Of a stretch of 25,904 nt of DNA, positions 877-18,856 are shown piece by piece; the stretch's first letter is position 1, and every line of letters begins with the position of its first letter. The stretch is from a virus, in IMG/VR virus record IMGVR_UViG_3300044843_000558, positions 1-25,904 of that record; one strand, given 5' to 3'. Both the position numbers and the translations under genes were made by a program. The notes under the pieces were generated by a model. It was not told the origin of the DNA, did no database searches, and was given only the letters and a program-made list of their open reading frames with translations.

Positions 877-2325
877 CTATTCTGGCGGCACTTCCAGCCT
901 GTAACGCTCTGTCCGGCCATCCTTCATGTGCGCCAAGAACCCAGCATCGACCATTGATTTAACCAATATCCTAGCCTGCCCAGAATCGAGACCACGAACA
1001 TTCTGCACGATTTCACGGACGGTCAGCGGCCCCTTCTGACTGATAAGCTGCATAATCCTGTCTTCCATCGCTACAATTTTCGGCGTTTCTGCTTCGCCAA
1101 CAATTTGGTCATAAAGATTATGCAAGTTGAGTCGCCAGGTCTCTGCGACCTGCTGCGCTCGATGCCAGTGGCGTAGCTCGATGATGTCTTTGCCTTCCAG
1201 GCTGGCAAGCAGCATTGCTACCCGGAGCGCCTTTTCCGGCAACCGGGCATAGTTCCCATCGAGATCCGTTAGACGGCTTTGTGATACAATATCGATAAGA
1301 GCATCGTTGTAGCGGTAATAGGCGTCATAGACCCCATTGCCCATCCTGCAAAGTTGTGGTTGCTTGTGGGTAACAACCGCCTCGTACTTTGCCCCACGGT
1401 CTATCATTTGCACATCGGGAATACCCAACCGCTTGTGCCAGTCGGCAATGGGTTTGACGAGCGCAATAGGTGTGATTCGCTGCTCCTGGGGAAAGCGCTC
1501 GTTTTTTCTGACTGCGTTCAGCGGTGGCGTGACGAAGGCAAAGCGCGCCCAGAAGCCGTCATTCCACAGGGCCGCGCCCCGCTTGGCGTAGGGCTGCAAG
1601 TCAGCCGGCGTTAGATTCGCCAAGAGCGCCAAATAGGGCGAATATACAGTATCGTTGCCACGACCAATGGTTTCGTATTCGTAGGTATCTGGCGTGTCAT
1701 CGAACTTGCGCAGAAGGCTGCGAAAATCGGCCATAAATCCGCCATCGCGCATCATGGCCGACACTTTCTGTCCAAACTCATCAAAGTACCAGCCCTTCTG
1801 GGCAGCAAAGGCCACTTTGCGCTTGCGCTCTTCTTGCTTGTTGCTATCCATGTCGCCATATTCCATCGGGACTTGGTAGGTCATGCTGCGCACAAACGCC
1901 TGTGGCGTAGCGTCATCGGGCGCCAGCATGTGGGTCAGGCCAGCGCATTTTAATATGGCTTGCGCAATTTCCGCCGTTGTCGATTTTGCAAAAACCGACG
2001 TTCGGCTTGCCAGGGCAATATACAAACTCGTAAATCGGCGCTTGCCAAAGTCAATCGTGACACGCCGGGCCGCCACGGTGGACAGAAGCCATATCCCAAC
2101 CGATTCATGAAAATCATCATGGGCGCGCGGTGACCATATCCGGCTAAACGCGATATACTCATCAAGCCAAGCACAAGCCTTTGCGGCCAGAACAGGATCG
2201 TGGCGTGCGGCTTCCGGTAGGCTTGGCATAGCCGCACGTTCTGGCAATGCACGTGATGGCAGCAAATCTTCTGGCGTGTGATAGTTCCCATTTAGCAGTG
2301 TTGACACATGTGTTGACACATCCAC
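877..2325 (-). CDS. DUF3987-like replication ATPase (primase-helicase type) with C-terminal winged helix
   Basis: This 482-aa protein begins at a GTG (2325-2323) with AAGGAG eight bases upstream. The central region resembles DUF3987 proteins, which are phage and mobile-element ATPases linked to replication. There is a P-loop-like stretch at residues ~106-117 (SRTSVFAKSTTA) in which the usual Gly before Lys is Ala, an APDDATPQAF segment at ~135-144, and an acidic WYFDEFGQ motif at ~177-184 that may serve as Walker B. Residues ~415-475 (RIMQLISQKGPLTVREI...ILVKSMVDAGFL) form a winged-helix-like domain. The gene follows the XRE regulator and precedes the inverted-repeat region. Codons 112-124 are the exact source of the mini-array spacer at 3588-3624. 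The family call is by motif; helicase activity is inferred. Confidence 0.75.
   Translation of the reverse strand: MDVSTHVSTLLNGNYHTPEDLLPSRALPERAAMPSLPEAARHDPVLAAKACAWLDEYIAFSRIWSPRAHDDFHESVGIWLLSTVAARRVTIDFGKRRFTSLYIALASRTSVFAKSTTAEIAQAILKCAGLTHMLAPDDATPQAFVRSMTYQVPMEYGDMDSNKQEERKRKVAFAAQKGWYFDEFGQKVSAMMRDGGFMADFRSLLRKFDDTPDTYEYETIGRGNDTVYSPYLALLANLTPADLQPYAKRGAALWNDGFWARFAFVTPPLNAVRKNERFPQEQRITPIALVKPIADWHKRLGIPDVQMIDRGAKYEAVVTHKQPQLCRMGNGVYDAYYRYNDALIDIVSQSRLTDLDGNYARLPEKALRVAMLLASLEGKDIIELRHWHRAQQVAETWRLNLHNLYDQIVGEAETPKIVAMEDRIMQLISQKGPLTVREIVQNVRGLDSGQARILVKSMVDAGFLAHMKDGRTERYRLEVPPE
1956..1992 (-). other. Protospacer: 37-nt exact match to the mini-CRISPR spacer
   Basis: Positions 1956-1992 are identical, in inverted orientation, to 3588-3624. 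The match lies inside the DUF3987 gene and is in frame: it encodes FAKSTTAEIAQA, the P-loop-like region. On the spacer-identical strand the eight bases 5' of the match are CGTCGGTT and the bases 3' are TATTAAAA. Neither resembles the repeat ends that flank the spacer in the array, so under CRISPR self/non-self rules this site would look like a target rather than an array copy. Confidence 0.95.
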
Positions 2326-2906: not shown

Positions 2907-3131
2907 ATGGCACTAACCGGCGCAATGAACGCCAGCCGCTACAATCGACAGGTGAAACGAATAGAGGCGCAAATGTCCGAGGTCTACGAACGGCTGGGAG
3001 AACTGGACGGCATGTTGCGAGAGGAAAACCGCGCCGGGAATCGGCTGACTCGGTTAGATGGAATTGTTGCTGATGGCCGGGGGATCAGGCTGCCGGACAG
3101 GTCGTCCATCATCCGGCGCAAGGCGGCATGA
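2907..3131 (+). CDS. Small charged helical protein (74 aa), unknown function
   Basis: The ATG at 2907 follows the duplicated AGGAG/GAAGGGA segment. Residues 8-50 (ASRYNRQVKRIEAQMSEVYE...GMLREENRAGNRL) look like a genuine amphipathic, coiled-coil-prone helix. The last ~25 residues have the flavour of an antisense shadow of the convergent gene. The coding region overlaps the end of that gene (2984-3337) by about 150 bases. I recognise no family. It is the first rightward open frame beyond the XRE control region, where a Cro-like or early gene would be expected, but it shows no HTH. Confidence 0.45.
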   Translation: MALTGAMNASRYNRQVKRIEAQMSEVYERLGELDGMLREENRAGNRLTRLDGIVADGRGIRLPDRSSIIRRKAA

Positions 3132-3337
3132 TAAGCGGCGATGACTTCCGGCGCAACAGTCATGCGGGAAAACAGCGGCTTGAGCCGGGGCAGGTGCATG
3201 GGCGACAGGAGCCAAGCGCCGTTGTCGTAGGCAGCGCCGGCCATCGCCTTGATCTCATCCTTGCGCTTGCCGTCAAAGTTGTCCATGCGTAGCGCCATTG
3301 TGTTGCTGTCCACGTGGGTGATAGTCGCCGTCGTCAT
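2984..3337 (-). CDS. Hypothetical protein (117 aa), convergent with the small rightward gene
   Basis: The likely start is the ATG at 3337-3335, giving MTTATITHVDSNTMALRMDN. The open frame extends to 3544, but the extra N-terminus is low-complexity and Arg/Pro-rich. Residues 15-75 (FDGKRKDEIKAMAGAAYDNGAW...PRLKPLF) have a compact mixed alpha/beta pattern weakly reminiscent of HARP-like or helicase-associated domains. This is a resemblance, not an identification. The last ~35 residues are Ser/Arg/Pro-rich and overlap the opposing gene. There is no clear ribosome binding site. Confidence 0.45.
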   Translation of the reverse strand: MTTATITHVDSNTMALRMDNFDGKRKDEIKAMAGAAYDNGAWLLSPMHLPRLKPLFSRMTVAPEVIAAYHAALRRMMDDLSGSLIPRPSATIPSNRVSRFPARFSSRNMPSSSPSRS

Positions 3338-3547
3338 TGGTTCATCGACTGGACAACGCAGAGATAGACACTTTTTATTGCGTCGCTCGCCCTCAGGAGC
3401 GGAGTTGGCCGCAGGGGAAGCCGGGAGGGGTTTTAGATGGTTGGAACGGGCCCTTGCTCTGGTTTCTCCCGGGGGCATAACTCGGATCATTCTGTTCGTC
3501 CGCACTTTGATCCCCGCCCGCTCTTGAGCATGTTGCCACAGCACCGG
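3338..3547. other. Non-coding stretch upstream of the mini-array
   Basis: I see no convincing gene here. The open frames in this interval are Arg/Pro/Ser-rich and lack ribosome binding sites. I also see no AT-rich leader or clear promoter facing the array. The CACTTTTTATTG segment at about 3370 is the only AT-rich patch. Confidence 0.4.
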
Positions 3548-3666
3548 AGGGCCGGAATCAACATCAACCCAGTCGCGGGATTAAAACTTTGCAAAATCGA
3601 CAACGGCGGAAATTGCGCAAGCCAGGGCCGGAATCAACATCAACCCAGTCGCGGGATTAAAACTTT
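3548..3666 (+). CRISPR. Two-repeat, one-spacer CRISPR-like mini-array with a self-matching spacer
   Basis: A 43-bp sequence is present twice without mismatch (3548-3590 and 3624-3666), period 76. Its core runs from GGGCCGGAATC to GGGATTAAAAC (39 bp, 3549-3587 and 3625-3663). The ATTAAAAC end resembles the ATTGAAAC 3' ends of many type I and III CRISPR repeats, and CCCAGTCGCGGG inside it can form a short stem. The spacer is about 37 nt (3588-3624). That whole stretch is an exact inverted match to 1956-1992 in the DUF3987 gene of this same molecule. The TTT after both repeats and the A before both make the repeat/spacer edges uncertain by 1-3 bases. No cas gene, leader or third repeat is visible. 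Mini-arrays in viruses are known (for example in archaeal viruses) and have been linked to inter-virus competition. The direction of transcription is unknown. Confidence 0.75.
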
Positions 3667-3813
3667 CGGGTAATCTCGGTTATTCGGATTCTCGCAACGC
3701 TGGATCATGGCAGCCCATACCGCGTGTTGTGGGTGACGGGATAGGCCATGCCGCCGATTGTTGCCGTGTCGAAGACAGCCGCAACTGAACGTTGAACGGG
3801 ACTGACCTAAAAC
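3640..3813 (-). pseudogene. Remnant of an HNH/zinc-finger-type phage gene, truncated at the CRISPR repeat
   Basis: The minus-strand frame reads VLGQSRSTFSCGCLRHGNN, then HGLSRHPQHAVWAAMIQRC, then ENPNNRDYPK. This matches the widespread phage HNH-associated pattern in which SCGCL is followed by HG.S..P.Y..W..M..RC.NP.N..Y..YGGRGI. The expected NYGGRGI and everything after it are missing: the frame enters the mini-array repeat right after DYP (3667) and stops at 3640. No start codon is present either, because the upstream part is now promoter and operator sequence. It is a decayed fragment, and the repeat lies exactly at its broken end. Confidence 0.65.
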
Positions 3814-3873
3814 GTCATAATCTTGACAACTGCAATACGTTGTGATACTATCATGAAAACATGACGTTTAAGG
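3806..3873. promoter_or_regulatory. Inverted-repeat operator flanking the rightward promoter
   Basis: CCTAAAACGTCAT (3806-3818) and ATGACGTTTAAGG (3861-3873) match as inverted repeats at 12 of 13 positions and bracket the promoter at 3823-3851. The next gene encodes a ribbon-helix-helix protein, so autoregulation is the natural reading. The XRE protein is another candidate binder, since ATGAC is shared with its own putative operator. Confidence 0.65.
3823..3851 (+). promoter_or_regulatory. Strong rightward sigma70-type promoter
   Basis: A perfect -35 TTGACA (3823-3828) is separated by 17 bp from TACTAT (3846-3851). Transcription would start near 3858, about 30 bases before the RHH gene. This is the best promoter in the window and probably drives the whole rightward small-gene cluster. 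Confidence 0.8.
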
Positions 3874-3889
3874 TCTATCGAGGTGCTTT

Positions 3890-4099
3890 GTGGGTGAGAC
3901 AGTATCGTTCCGGTTGGAATCGGCAAATCTTGAAAAATTGCGTGAGATCGCAAGGGCTTGCGGCATTACGCCAAACCGGATGATTAACAAATTGATTGCC
4001 GTGGCCGAACTTACTGAAATTGTAAGCGTTCGTCCGGTCGCCGTGATATGGGTGGGTGAGCATGACCAGCGAGCAGCGCCAGTGGCTACAAGCGGTTGA
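3890..4099 (+). CDS. Ribbon-helix-helix DNA-binding regulator (69 aa)
   Basis: Translation starts at GTG 3890 with GAGGTG just upstream. Residues 3-35 (ETVSFRLESANLEKLREIAR, then the turn and second helix ITPNRMINKLI) form a typical CopG/Arc-type ribbon-helix-helix: a DNA-reading strand followed by two helices. The C-terminal ~30 residues are less conserved-looking and overlap the next gene. It is the first gene after the promoter and operator at 3806-3873, so it probably controls its own operon. Confidence 0.75.
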   Translation: MGETVSFRLESANLEKLREIARACGITPNRMINKLIAVAELTEIVSVRPVAVIWVGEHDQRAAPVATSG

Positions 4100-9658: not shown

Positions 9659-11195
9659 AATCGGTGTTCACTGGATTAAAACGCATGGACGGCCAGAAGA
9701 CCTGGACTATATCCGCCGTCTTCAGCCGCCTAGCGTCAAACTCGTGGCGGGTGACGTGCCCGACGTGCAGTGGATCAGCGACACTTATCAGGCCGCACCT
9801 AACACGCTGATCGTCTTGCGCTCACACGCCATGAGTGAGCAGAAAAGCGATATGGCCGCAGACCCGACGTTTACAGGGCGACGCCATGCGCAGGAATGGT
9901 ACGGCCACATCGAGAAGCTACGCAACGAAGCGAAGCGGCGCAATTTGCCGTTTCCCCCCGCAGAACAAATTGTCGTGCTGGGTATCAATGAGCCTGAAGT
10001 ATGGAATCACCTACAGCAGACCGTCGATTACACCGTGGCTTTTCTGGACGCCTGCGCAAAACTGGGTATGACAGCCGGGGCGCTTAACTTGTCGGTGGGC
10101 TGGCCTGCTAACACTGGCACCGACACGCCGCCGAACTGGACGCCATACGAACCGGTACACGCTGCGCTAATCCACGGGCGCCATTATCTGTTTCTGCACG
10201 AATATCACGACATCGCTGGGCCGGCTGAAAACCGGCGCTGGTGGTGTGGGCGTTACCTGCAATGTCCGTGGCAGGATGTACGCATCATCGTCGGGGAATA
10301 TGGCATTGATAGATTCGTCAAGGATGGCAACATTCACATTGATCGGCGCGGGTGGCGCGGGTGGCTTTCCGCAGATCAATACGCTGCTCAAATTAGGGAG
10401 TACCACGAATCGCTCTTGCAGGACAAGCGCATTCACAGCTTACAGATATACTCATCTGATTACAGTCATCCGTGGTCATCCTTTGACTTGCCCGACCTAT
10501 ACCCTGCTCTGCTGGCTTACGCTGGCGAAGTGCGCAACCGACCAGCGCAAACACAGCCACAGGGCTGGACGGGCTACGTGTCTGCTCCTGCTGGGCTAAA
10601 TCTGCGCAATTTACCATCAACTAACGGCGACATCCTCCGCATGTTGAAGTGTGGCGACGAACTGACCGTGCTGGGTAACGCTGGTGATTGGTTGACGGTC
10701 CAACACGAAGGCGCTACCGGCTACGTGTTTGCGCAGTGGGTGAGTCGGGAAAAGCCGGAGATCAGCGAAGGATCATCGAAGGATCAGCGGAGCGACTGGC
10801 AAAAAGCCATTACCTTTGTGCTGCGCTGGGAAGGTGGCCTTGCCGATAATCCCAATGATCCCGGTGGATTAACCAACTTCGGAATCAGTCAGCGCTCATA
10901 TCATGACCTGGACATTCGCAACCTGACCAAAGAGCAAGCCGTTGCCATCTACGAGCGCGACTACTGGCAGGCTTCCGGCGCTGACAAGTTGCCCTGGCCA
11001 TTGGCGCTTATCCACCTGGACAGCGCTGTCAATGCCGGTGTAGGCAAAGCGCAACAGTGGCTACAACAGTCAGGCGGCAATGCTACACATTACATGGCCT
11101 TACGTCTGGACTTCTACACTCGACTGAACACCTGGCAGCATTTTGGCCTTGCCTGGGTGCGGCGGATTGCTGACCTGATGAAAGAGGCGGCGTGA
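9648..11195 (+). CDS. Three-domain endolysin: GH-A-like glycosidase fold, SH3b, GH108 muramidase
   Basis: The protein is 515 aa. Residues 1-295 resemble a clan GH-A (beta/alpha)8 glycosidase: LGINEPEVWN puts a possible acid/base Glu115 after Asn114, and IIVGEYGID offers a nucleophile Glu217. Residues ~309-367 are a bacterial SH3 domain (LNLRNLPSTNGDILRMLKCG, then GYVFAQWV). Residues ~384-510 are a GH108 lysozyme domain: FVLRWEGG with catalytic Glu395, followed by DNPNDPGGLTNFGIS. The enzyme would cut peptidoglycan at host lysis. The N-terminal domain could be a second cell-wall hydrolase or a degenerate binding domain. Two glycosidase-like domains around an SH3b linker is unusual. The stop overlaps the next GTG start. 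Confidence 0.85.
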   Translation: MNHKIGVHWIKTHGRPEDLDYIRRLQPPSVKLVAGDVPDVQWISDTYQAAPNTLIVLRSHAMSEQKSDMAADPTFTGRRHAQEWYGHIEKLRNEAKRRNLPFPPAEQIVVLGINEPEVWNHLQQTVDYTVAFLDACAKLGMTAGALNLSVGWPANTGTDTPPNWTPYEPVHAALIHGRHYLFLHEYHDIAGPAENRRWWCGRYLQCPWQDVRIIVGEYGIDRFVKDGNIHIDRRGWRGWLSADQYAAQIREYHESLLQDKRIHSLQIYSSDYSHPWSSFDLPDLYPALLAYAGEVRNRPAQTQPQGWTGYVSAPAGLNLRNLPSTNGDILRMLKCGDELTVLGNAGDWLTVQHEGATGYVFAQWVSREKPEISEGSSKDQRSDWQKAITFVLRWEGGLADNPNDPGGLTNFGISQRSYHDLDIRNLTKEQAVAIYERDYWQASGADKLPWPLALIHLDSAVNAGVGKAQQWLQQSGGNATHYMALRLDFYTRLNTWQHFGLAWVRRIADLMKEAA

Positions 11196-11926
11196 GCATC
11201 CTCATCTTCGCTCCACCACAGCCAGATCTGGCGCAACAGTCCAGTGAGGTGGCGGCGCTCATTAATTGCTTCCACCGGCCCTTGCTGGCGCATAGTGAGG
11301 ATGAGCTGAGGCAATGTGTTGAGGCCGTCGATGAGCCGATTGAGGGCTTTTGGTTCGTGGGCCATAGTGGGGCAGCGGGGGTAGTAGCGGATGGACGAAC
11401 GATGGCCGTCCGCACGCTGGCGCAATATCTATCGACCGCTGCCATTGAGTGGAGCTTTTTCAACTCATGCGAATCGCTGCTTTTCATTGATGAATTGCAA
11501 AAATTGTATAGCCATGATTGCTACGCCTACATCACGGAAATAGCCGACATTGCAGCCTGGCGTACCGCGCGATTAGTGGCGCGAAACTACTCAAATGTCG
11601 GGAATATATTGCAGGCTGTACAGACGGCGGCACCAGCCGGTACAACGCCTCTGCGTTATTTCCCTAGTCCTGTTGGGGGACAGAGGATGTCACAGAAAGA
11701 TTTGGAATCGGTACAGGCGCTATCCGAACAGATAGCCGAACTGACAAAGGTGCTGACTGGCGATGGCCGCTATCAGCGTAGCGGCTTGATTGATAACGTA
11801 AGGCATCTTGAGAGCAGGCTTACGGCTATCATAAACGAACAGGAGCGGCAACGCACTTGGTTGCTGTTGACCAGCGCATTGATGGTGGCGATTCTCGTCA
11901 TCGAAATTTTTCTACGCTGGGGGTAA
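11192..11926 (+). CDS. CHAT/caspase-like putative protease with C-terminal membrane anchor
   Basis: This 244-aa protein starts at GTG 11192 (GAGG upstream), coupled to the endolysin stop. Residues ~51-68 (EGFWFVGHSGAAGVVADG) and ~86-97 (EWSFFNSCESLL) match the paired motifs of CHAT/caspase-fold proteases, in which strands end in GH.G and N(S/A)C. This gives a candidate dyad His58/Cys93. Residues ~120-150 (AAWRTARLVARNYSNVGNIL) fit the later helix of CHAT domains. Residues ~165-220 are coiled-coil-like, and 223-241 form one transmembrane helix near the C-terminus. A tail-anchored peptidase in a lysis block is unexpected. Possible roles are lysis timing, cleavage of a host defence protein or a toxin-like function. 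The fold is inferred from motifs only. Confidence 0.6.
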   Translation: MSILIFAPPQPDLAQQSSEVAALINCFHRPLLAHSEDELRQCVEAVDEPIEGFWFVGHSGAAGVVADGRTMAVRTLAQYLSTAAIEWSFFNSCESLLFIDELQKLYSHDCYAYITEIADIAAWRTARLVARNYSNVGNILQAVQTAAPAGTTPLRYFPSPVGGQRMSQKDLESVQALSEQIAELTKVLTGDGRYQRSGLIDNVRHLESRLTAIINEQERQRTWLLLTSALMVAILVIEIFLRWG

Positions 11927-18513: not shown

Positions 18514-18680
18514 AGTTTCTAAAATGGTTGTCAGCGATTACCAGCATTCTGGCTTTCATCATTTTGTTGGCGACGTTGGCGGCACCGGGGGCCGATGGAC
18601 AAACAGCCATATTAGGCGCTATCGGGCTGGCGGTCATTCCTTACGTGATTGTGGGTGCGATTGAACGACTGAACACATAG
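18510..18680 (+). CDS. Small two-helix membrane protein (56 aa)
   Basis: ATG 18510 has GGGAG upstream and overlaps the previous stop. Two transmembrane segments are evident (MKFLKWLSAITSILAFIILL; AILGAIGLAVIPYVIVGAI), separated by APGADGQT, with a short charged end. Two-helix topology and size fit a holin or a small inner-membrane protein, but it lies in the head module. Its TAG stop overlaps the first bases of the tRNA. Confidence 0.65.
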   Translation: MKFLKWLSAITSILAFIILLATLAAPGADGQTAILGAIGLAVIPYVIVGAIERLNT

Positions 18681-18750
18681 CGAGGTAGAGCAGGGGTAGC
18701 TCGATAGGCTCATAACCTATAGGTCGATGGTTCGATTCCATCCTTCGCTA
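18679..18750 (+). tRNA. tRNA with anticodon CAT (Met, or Ile2 if lysidinylated)
   Basis: A full cloverleaf can be drawn. The acceptor AGCGAGG/CTTCGCT has one G-U pair. The D-stem is GAGC/GCTC with loop AGGGGTA. The anticodon stem is ATAGG/CCTAT with loop CTCATAA (anticodon CAT). The variable region is AGGTC. The T-stem is GATGG/CCATC with loop TTCGATT, and the discriminator is A at 18750. CCA is not encoded. The paired first base and the lack of three G-C pairs in the anticodon stem argue against an initiator. Elongator Met and the AUA-reading Ile tRNA cannot be told apart here. Confidence 0.92.
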
Positions 18751-18805
18751 CTTGCATGGTGAGTAAAGCCGTGCGCTAATTACATAACTCGCCATCAGGG
18801 AAACC

Positions 18806-18856
18806 AAGCGGCGGAAGCAACAGAGTGACATCTGTTGCTTCCGCCGCTTTTTCTTT
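18806..18856 (+). terminator. Very strong rho-independent terminator
   Basis: A perfect 19-bp inverted repeat (18806-18824 and 18831-18849) with loop GTGACA is followed by TTTCTTTT. It ends the transcript carrying terminase to tRNA, or processes it, before the scaffold/capsid genes. A weaker hairpin, ATGGTGAGT (18755-18763) with ACTCGCCAT (18787-18795), sits between the tRNA and this terminator. Confidence 0.9.

Follow-up and report, generated by a model that had tools for sequence, protein, structure and literature searches.

A fragment of a tailed-phage genome carries a single repeat-spacer-repeat unit, and the spacer is a perfect reverse complement of a part of the phage's own primase-helicase-like gene. 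We consider, with a probability of roughly 0.5, that this unit is a leaderless mini-CRISPR array without cas genes, in which the one spacer was derived from the phage's own DNA, probably through insertion at a solitary repeat by the Cas1-Cas2 proteins of the host. Within this reading, the CRISPR identity of the unit is very likely, and, once that identity is accepted, self-acquisition in the phage is somewhat favoured over other origins of the spacer.

Structure of the array and its self match

The analysed window is the entire linear record of an uncultivated virus from environmental DNA, with a length of 25,904 bases. The genes in it encode a terminase, a portal protein, a head-morphogenesis protein, major head proteins and an endolysin, as well as FtsK-like, exonuclease-like and HTH repressor proteins. 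The terminase, portal and capsid genes show that the window is a genuine fragment of the genome of a tailed phage, and the host of the phage is presumably bacterial. A tRNA-Met (CAT) gene (18679-18751), followed by a perfect 19-bp hairpin (18806-18849), is located amid the structural genes. In addition, positions 11192-11926 of the plus strand encode a 244-aa protein with a hydrophobic helix at the C-terminus, and its GHSG and NSC motifs resemble a caspase/CHAT-like His-Cys pair. This protein had no match in Pfam, PHROG, PADLOC or NCBIfam, and its AlphaFold model (mean pLDDT 40) was set aside.

A direct repeat of 43 nt is present in two identical copies, at 3548-3590 and 3624-3666, with a start-to-start distance of 76 nt. 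When the unit is parsed with a 39-nt repeat, GGGCCGGAATCAACATCAACCCAGTCGCGGGATTAAAAC, repeat 1 occupies 3549-3587, the 37-nt spacer 3588-3624, and repeat 2, identical to repeat 1, 3625-3663, all on the plus strand. The spacer is the reverse complement of positions 1956-1992 with 37/37 identity, and the distance between the array and the target is 1,595 nt. In this parse, the self match comprises the whole spacer and no letter beyond it. The A at one edge and the TTT at the other, four nucleotides in all, fit both the repeat and the match, and therefore all parses from 39/37 to 43/33 agree equally well with the sequence. By simple counting, an inverted identity of 37 nt is expected in 26 kb with a chance of about 1e-14, and it is very unlikely that the array and its self match are a chance product. 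The preliminary description had claimed two identical repeats of 39-43 bp around one spacer, a perfect 37-nt inverted match about 1.6 kb away, and a negligible chance of such an identity; all of these were borne out, and the presence of the repeat-spacer-repeat with its self match in the assembled sequence is confirmed. The 32-nt core of the repeat was detected at only these two sites in the window even when up to 3 mismatches were allowed (expected 0.00). By a scan for close repeat pairs, this was the only repeat-spacer-repeat unit of the CRISPR type in the window, and the same scan detected none in the retrieved phage loci.

The array is located in a stretch of about 550 nt without a clear gene (3339-3889), as judged from the ORF list and a codon-usage scan. 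This stretch is bordered on one side by a small ORF directed leftward (2984-3338) and on the other by an RHH-like ORF directed rightward (3890-4099), which has a weak match to RHH_4. A sigma-70-like promoter, TTGACA-17-TACTAT, is found on the plus strand at 3823-3851, 3' of the array and directed away from it. At the threshold used, no promoter-like site reading into the array was found close upstream on either strand, and no leader was seen beside the array. On the other side of the leftward ORF, the region 2700-2907, which adjoins the HTH repressor gene (2437-2700), has promoter-like sites on both strands and is likely a divergent control region; it contains a 14-nt tandem repeat at 2873-2905.

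The targeted gene (877-2325, minus strand) encodes a DUF3987/phage primase-helicase-like protein of 482 aa, which matched Pfam PF13148 (E 8e-9) and the DNA primase family phrog_3022 (E 9e-13). The protospacer (1956-1992, minus strand) begins in frame at codon 112 and codes FAKSTTAEIAQA(I) from this residue. The encoded peptide FAKSTTAEIAQAI resembles, and may be, the end of a nucleotide-binding loop with its lysine and serine/threonine. An AlphaFold model of the target protein was set aside, with a mean pLDDT of 37. The 5' flank of the protospacer, read on the protospacer strand, is ...GTCGGTT, and a GTT 5' flank would fit the TTN- or GTN-type PAMs that several type I systems use. Nested inverted repeats (outer 25 nt at 92% and inner 46 nt at 83%) are located at 683-872, with the ORF at 343-720 on one side and the primase gene, by its end, on the other. 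As single-stranded DNA, this region gave a folding energy of -40.9 kcal/mol (z -8.4 against shuffles), and it may serve as a replication origin of the hairpin type or as a priming site.

CRISPR-like features of the repeat

The 3' end of the repeat on the plus strand reads ...GGGATTAAAAC. It terminates in an 8-nt tag, ATTAAAAC, which is one letter different from ATTGAAAC and directly abuts a CCC-N6-GGG stem. For comparison, arrays were extracted from Synechocystis pSYSA, where they lie beside I-D and III cas genes, and from Thermus pTT27, beside III-A cas genes. In these reference arrays, the repeats measure 36-37 nt and the spacers are commonly 34-42 nt long; the 39/37 sizes of the phage unit are close to these values. 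The layout of a stem plus a tag was shared by three of the four reference repeats. Among 300,000 shuffles of the repeat, 11 had a boundary tag with at most one mismatch and an abutting stem, and no such case was present among the 25,672 43-mers of the window outside the array, although the true weight of this result is smaller, perhaps ten- to thirtyfold, because the feature was picked after the sequence had been seen. In the plus orientation, the alignment score between the phage repeat and one pSYSA repeat was reached by 5 of 2,000 shuffles, while the other three reference repeats showed no significant similarity. The 5' end of the repeat, GGGCCGG, is atypical. RNA folding of the unit was no better than that of shuffles, and therefore folding gives no support. 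The unit thus has near-identical repeats of 39 nt and a spacer of 37 nt, a stem-and-tag repeat architecture, and a location in a virus genome with no cas gene among the 10 window proteins scanned, as in virus-borne mini-CRISPR arrays. We regard it as very probably a mini-CRISPR, with putative production of crRNA.

Searches for the repeat and for related phages

The repeat was searched with two patterns in 84,980 genomes, a set in which the true host is possibly not included, and no match was obtained. Exact and degenerate patterns also found no match in the virus contigs of IMG/VR, blastn against phages and plasmids returned chance matches only, and nothing relevant was found in a literature search with the repeat string. 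A search with the 39-bp repeat for a CRISPR of the host, which had been suggested as a check, was thus empty in all of these collections. Identity with a host repeat is the decisive feature for membership among the mini-arrays, and no such repeat was present among the genomes, plasmids and phages searched. Consequently, the earlier proposal of a phage mini-CRISPR with a self spacer is supported in its anatomy, i.e., the architecture, the sizes, the TT-containing 5' flank and the site without a clear gene, and its membership in a host CRISPR is putative.

A terminase search revealed one clear relative, IMGVR_UViG_3300006417_000228, which is the nearest phage found, with protein identities of 69% for the terminase and 57% for the portal protein. 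It has neither a repeat-spacer-repeat unit nor a homologous early region. No relatives of the primase and FtsK proteins were detected in IMG/VR, and no relative carrying the protospacer site was found.

Proposed origin and alternative explanations

From these observations, we infer the Cas1-Cas2 origin of the unit, its transcription and processing, and the production, function and tolerance of a guide, in the following way. The phage would have held a solitary CRISPR repeat of the host type in its non-coding DNA. On infection, Cas1-Cas2 of the host would take 37 bp from the primase gene of the phage itself and integrate them at the solitary repeat, by which the repeat would be duplicated. Rightward transcription would then produce a crRNA with the 5' tag ATTAAAAC followed by TTTGCAAAATCG, which is in the sense of the primase gene. 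Because of this sense, the mRNA would offer the crRNA no complementary sequence. Pairing would take place with the template strand of the DNA, and an RNA-targeting effector would therefore miss the mRNA. Solitary repeats are common in intergenic phage DNA, where they act as RNA anti-CRISPR decoys, and a functional crRNA was obtained when a spacer and a second repeat were added to a solitary phage repeat (PMC10651486). Alternatively, the host may have acquired the phage-derived spacer before its transfer to the phage by recombination from the host array, which would give the same product here. Phage mini-arrays have been proposed to gain spacers by such recombination with host arrays, a route that is favoured because leaders are absent from them (PMC6858448, PMC7099407). 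That the spacer is self-derived, by acquisition in the phage or via the phage, has about an even chance. A perfect self target is expected to be harmful if the guide works, and this counts against the mini-array reading. We propose that the phage persists since the guide is ineffective, owing to the lack of a matching or active host interference system, an unlicensed flank, low expression or an anti-CRISPR.

On the technical side, the assembly gives rise to the most serious doubt. The record is linear and from an uncultivated virus, and the array and its match are 1.6 kb apart; in a strain-mixed or faulty assembly, an array from one strain could have been joined in the contig with the matching primase allele of another strain that it targets. 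The doubt arises from SPV1 and SPV2, in which exactly such a pattern exists between relatives: the carrier has a mutated site, and that of the relative is intact (PMC6858448). However, the sequence appears continuous on both sides of the array, without interruption of a clear gene, and we consider this explanation unlikely. Its simplest form, a chimera of a host array and the phage at the shared 37 nt, would break at the match and not 1.6 kb away; the junctions are located elsewhere, and it was rejected. The array could instead be a weapon, the spacer of which blocks close relatives sharing the primase site, while the carrier is shielded by the timing of expression, an anti-CRISPR or a non-permissive flank. 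Most known mini-arrays do target relatives, often near the position of the array (PMC6858448, PMC7099407, PMC11656645), but the perfect site here is in the carrier itself and a relative with the site was not found, which makes a weapon quite improbable.

An origin outside CRISPR was also considered. In this scenario, template switching during replication, with TTT and A as microhomologies at the joints, would have placed an inverted copy of 33-37 nt of the primase gene in the intergenic region, and about 40 nt would have been copied a second time. The overlap of 4 nt (3 + 1) at the two joints would occur by chance in about 1.6% of cases under plain insertion, and the repeat was found nowhere else in the searches and has no leader. 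Template switching nevertheless leaves unexplained the sizes of the unit and the CRISPR-like tag and stem exactly at the boundary, and we judge it to be distinctly improbable. An invertible segment with arms of 37 bp was rejected, as it leaves the direct repeats unexplained. Finally, the unit could have a role for the phage itself. It is very doubtful that the phage keeps a working self-guide and employs the Cas proteins of the host to regulate its replication, or to keep its own copies in check, instead of attacking others. The least probable version is a regulator, in which host Cas proteins with the guide would repress and not cut the primase gene, and thereby tune replication. The perfect self match is in a replication gene and the template strand would be the one bound by the guide, and PMC10989794 describes the regulation of genes in haloarchaea by a type I effector together with an RNA that resembles a crRNA; on the other hand, full complementarity over 37 nt favours cutting, and no conservation was seen in relatives.

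Comparison with known virus-borne arrays

Mini-arrays in viruses are of a known kind (PMC6858448, PMC7099407, PMC11656645), and have been explained as weapons against relatives, with the theory that the carriers avoid perfect self matches because they would be inactivated by them (PMC7099407). A phage whose spacer matches its own genome perfectly over the full length either contradicts this assumption of self-avoidance or indicates that such guides can be silent. If the mini-array reading is correct, the array could also document a direct insertion by Cas1-Cas2 into the genome of a phage, an event that has been questioned for phage arrays lacking a leader.

The intergenic mini-arrays of SPV1 and SPV2 (Portogloboviridae) are similar to the present unit in having one or two spacers, no cas genes and a target near the array, but they have host-like leaders, and their spacers match a relative while their own sites are mutated or deleted (PMC6858448); in the present phage, no leader was seen and its own site is perfect. 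The phage and prophage mini-arrays of Faure et al. 2019, as far as they are described in PMC7099407 and PMC6858448, also have few spacers and no cas genes; their leaders are unlike those of the hosts, and their spacers match adjacent genes of relatives and not the carrier, unlike the case here. The Racr and solitary repeat units share with the present unit a CRISPR-like repeat that is located between phage genes and away from cas genes, but they are solitary, mostly match the subtype of the host and act as decoys (PMC10651486). In contrast, the repeat described here had no match in the searches and is duplicated around a spacer, with its two copies 76 nt apart, and it lacks, on either strand at the threshold used, the predicted promoter directly upstream that is frequent, though not universal, in Racr units.

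The preliminary description had regarded a self spacer as different from what is known. This is valid with respect to SPV1/SPV2 and the reported phages; however, perfect self-matching spacers had already been published for mini-array 1 of Chiyouvirus, an archaeal virus of Bathyarchaeia, where their role was left unexplained (PMC10848311), and this is the one published virus with perfect self spacers that we found. Chiyouvirus mini-array 1 is likewise virus-borne, but has four repeats and three spacers, a repeat identical to that of the host, and a Cas2 homologue in an archaeal virus (PMC10848311), whereas the present phage is tailed, has sigma-70-like sites, and carries one spacer and a repeat without a match in our searches. 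The new point here is accordingly a tailed, presumably bacterial phage with a single full-length self spacer, in a kind of mini-array that is itself already known. This phage and Chiyouvirus, taken together, suggest that self spacers recur in virus arrays, which can be tested by a survey of virus collections.
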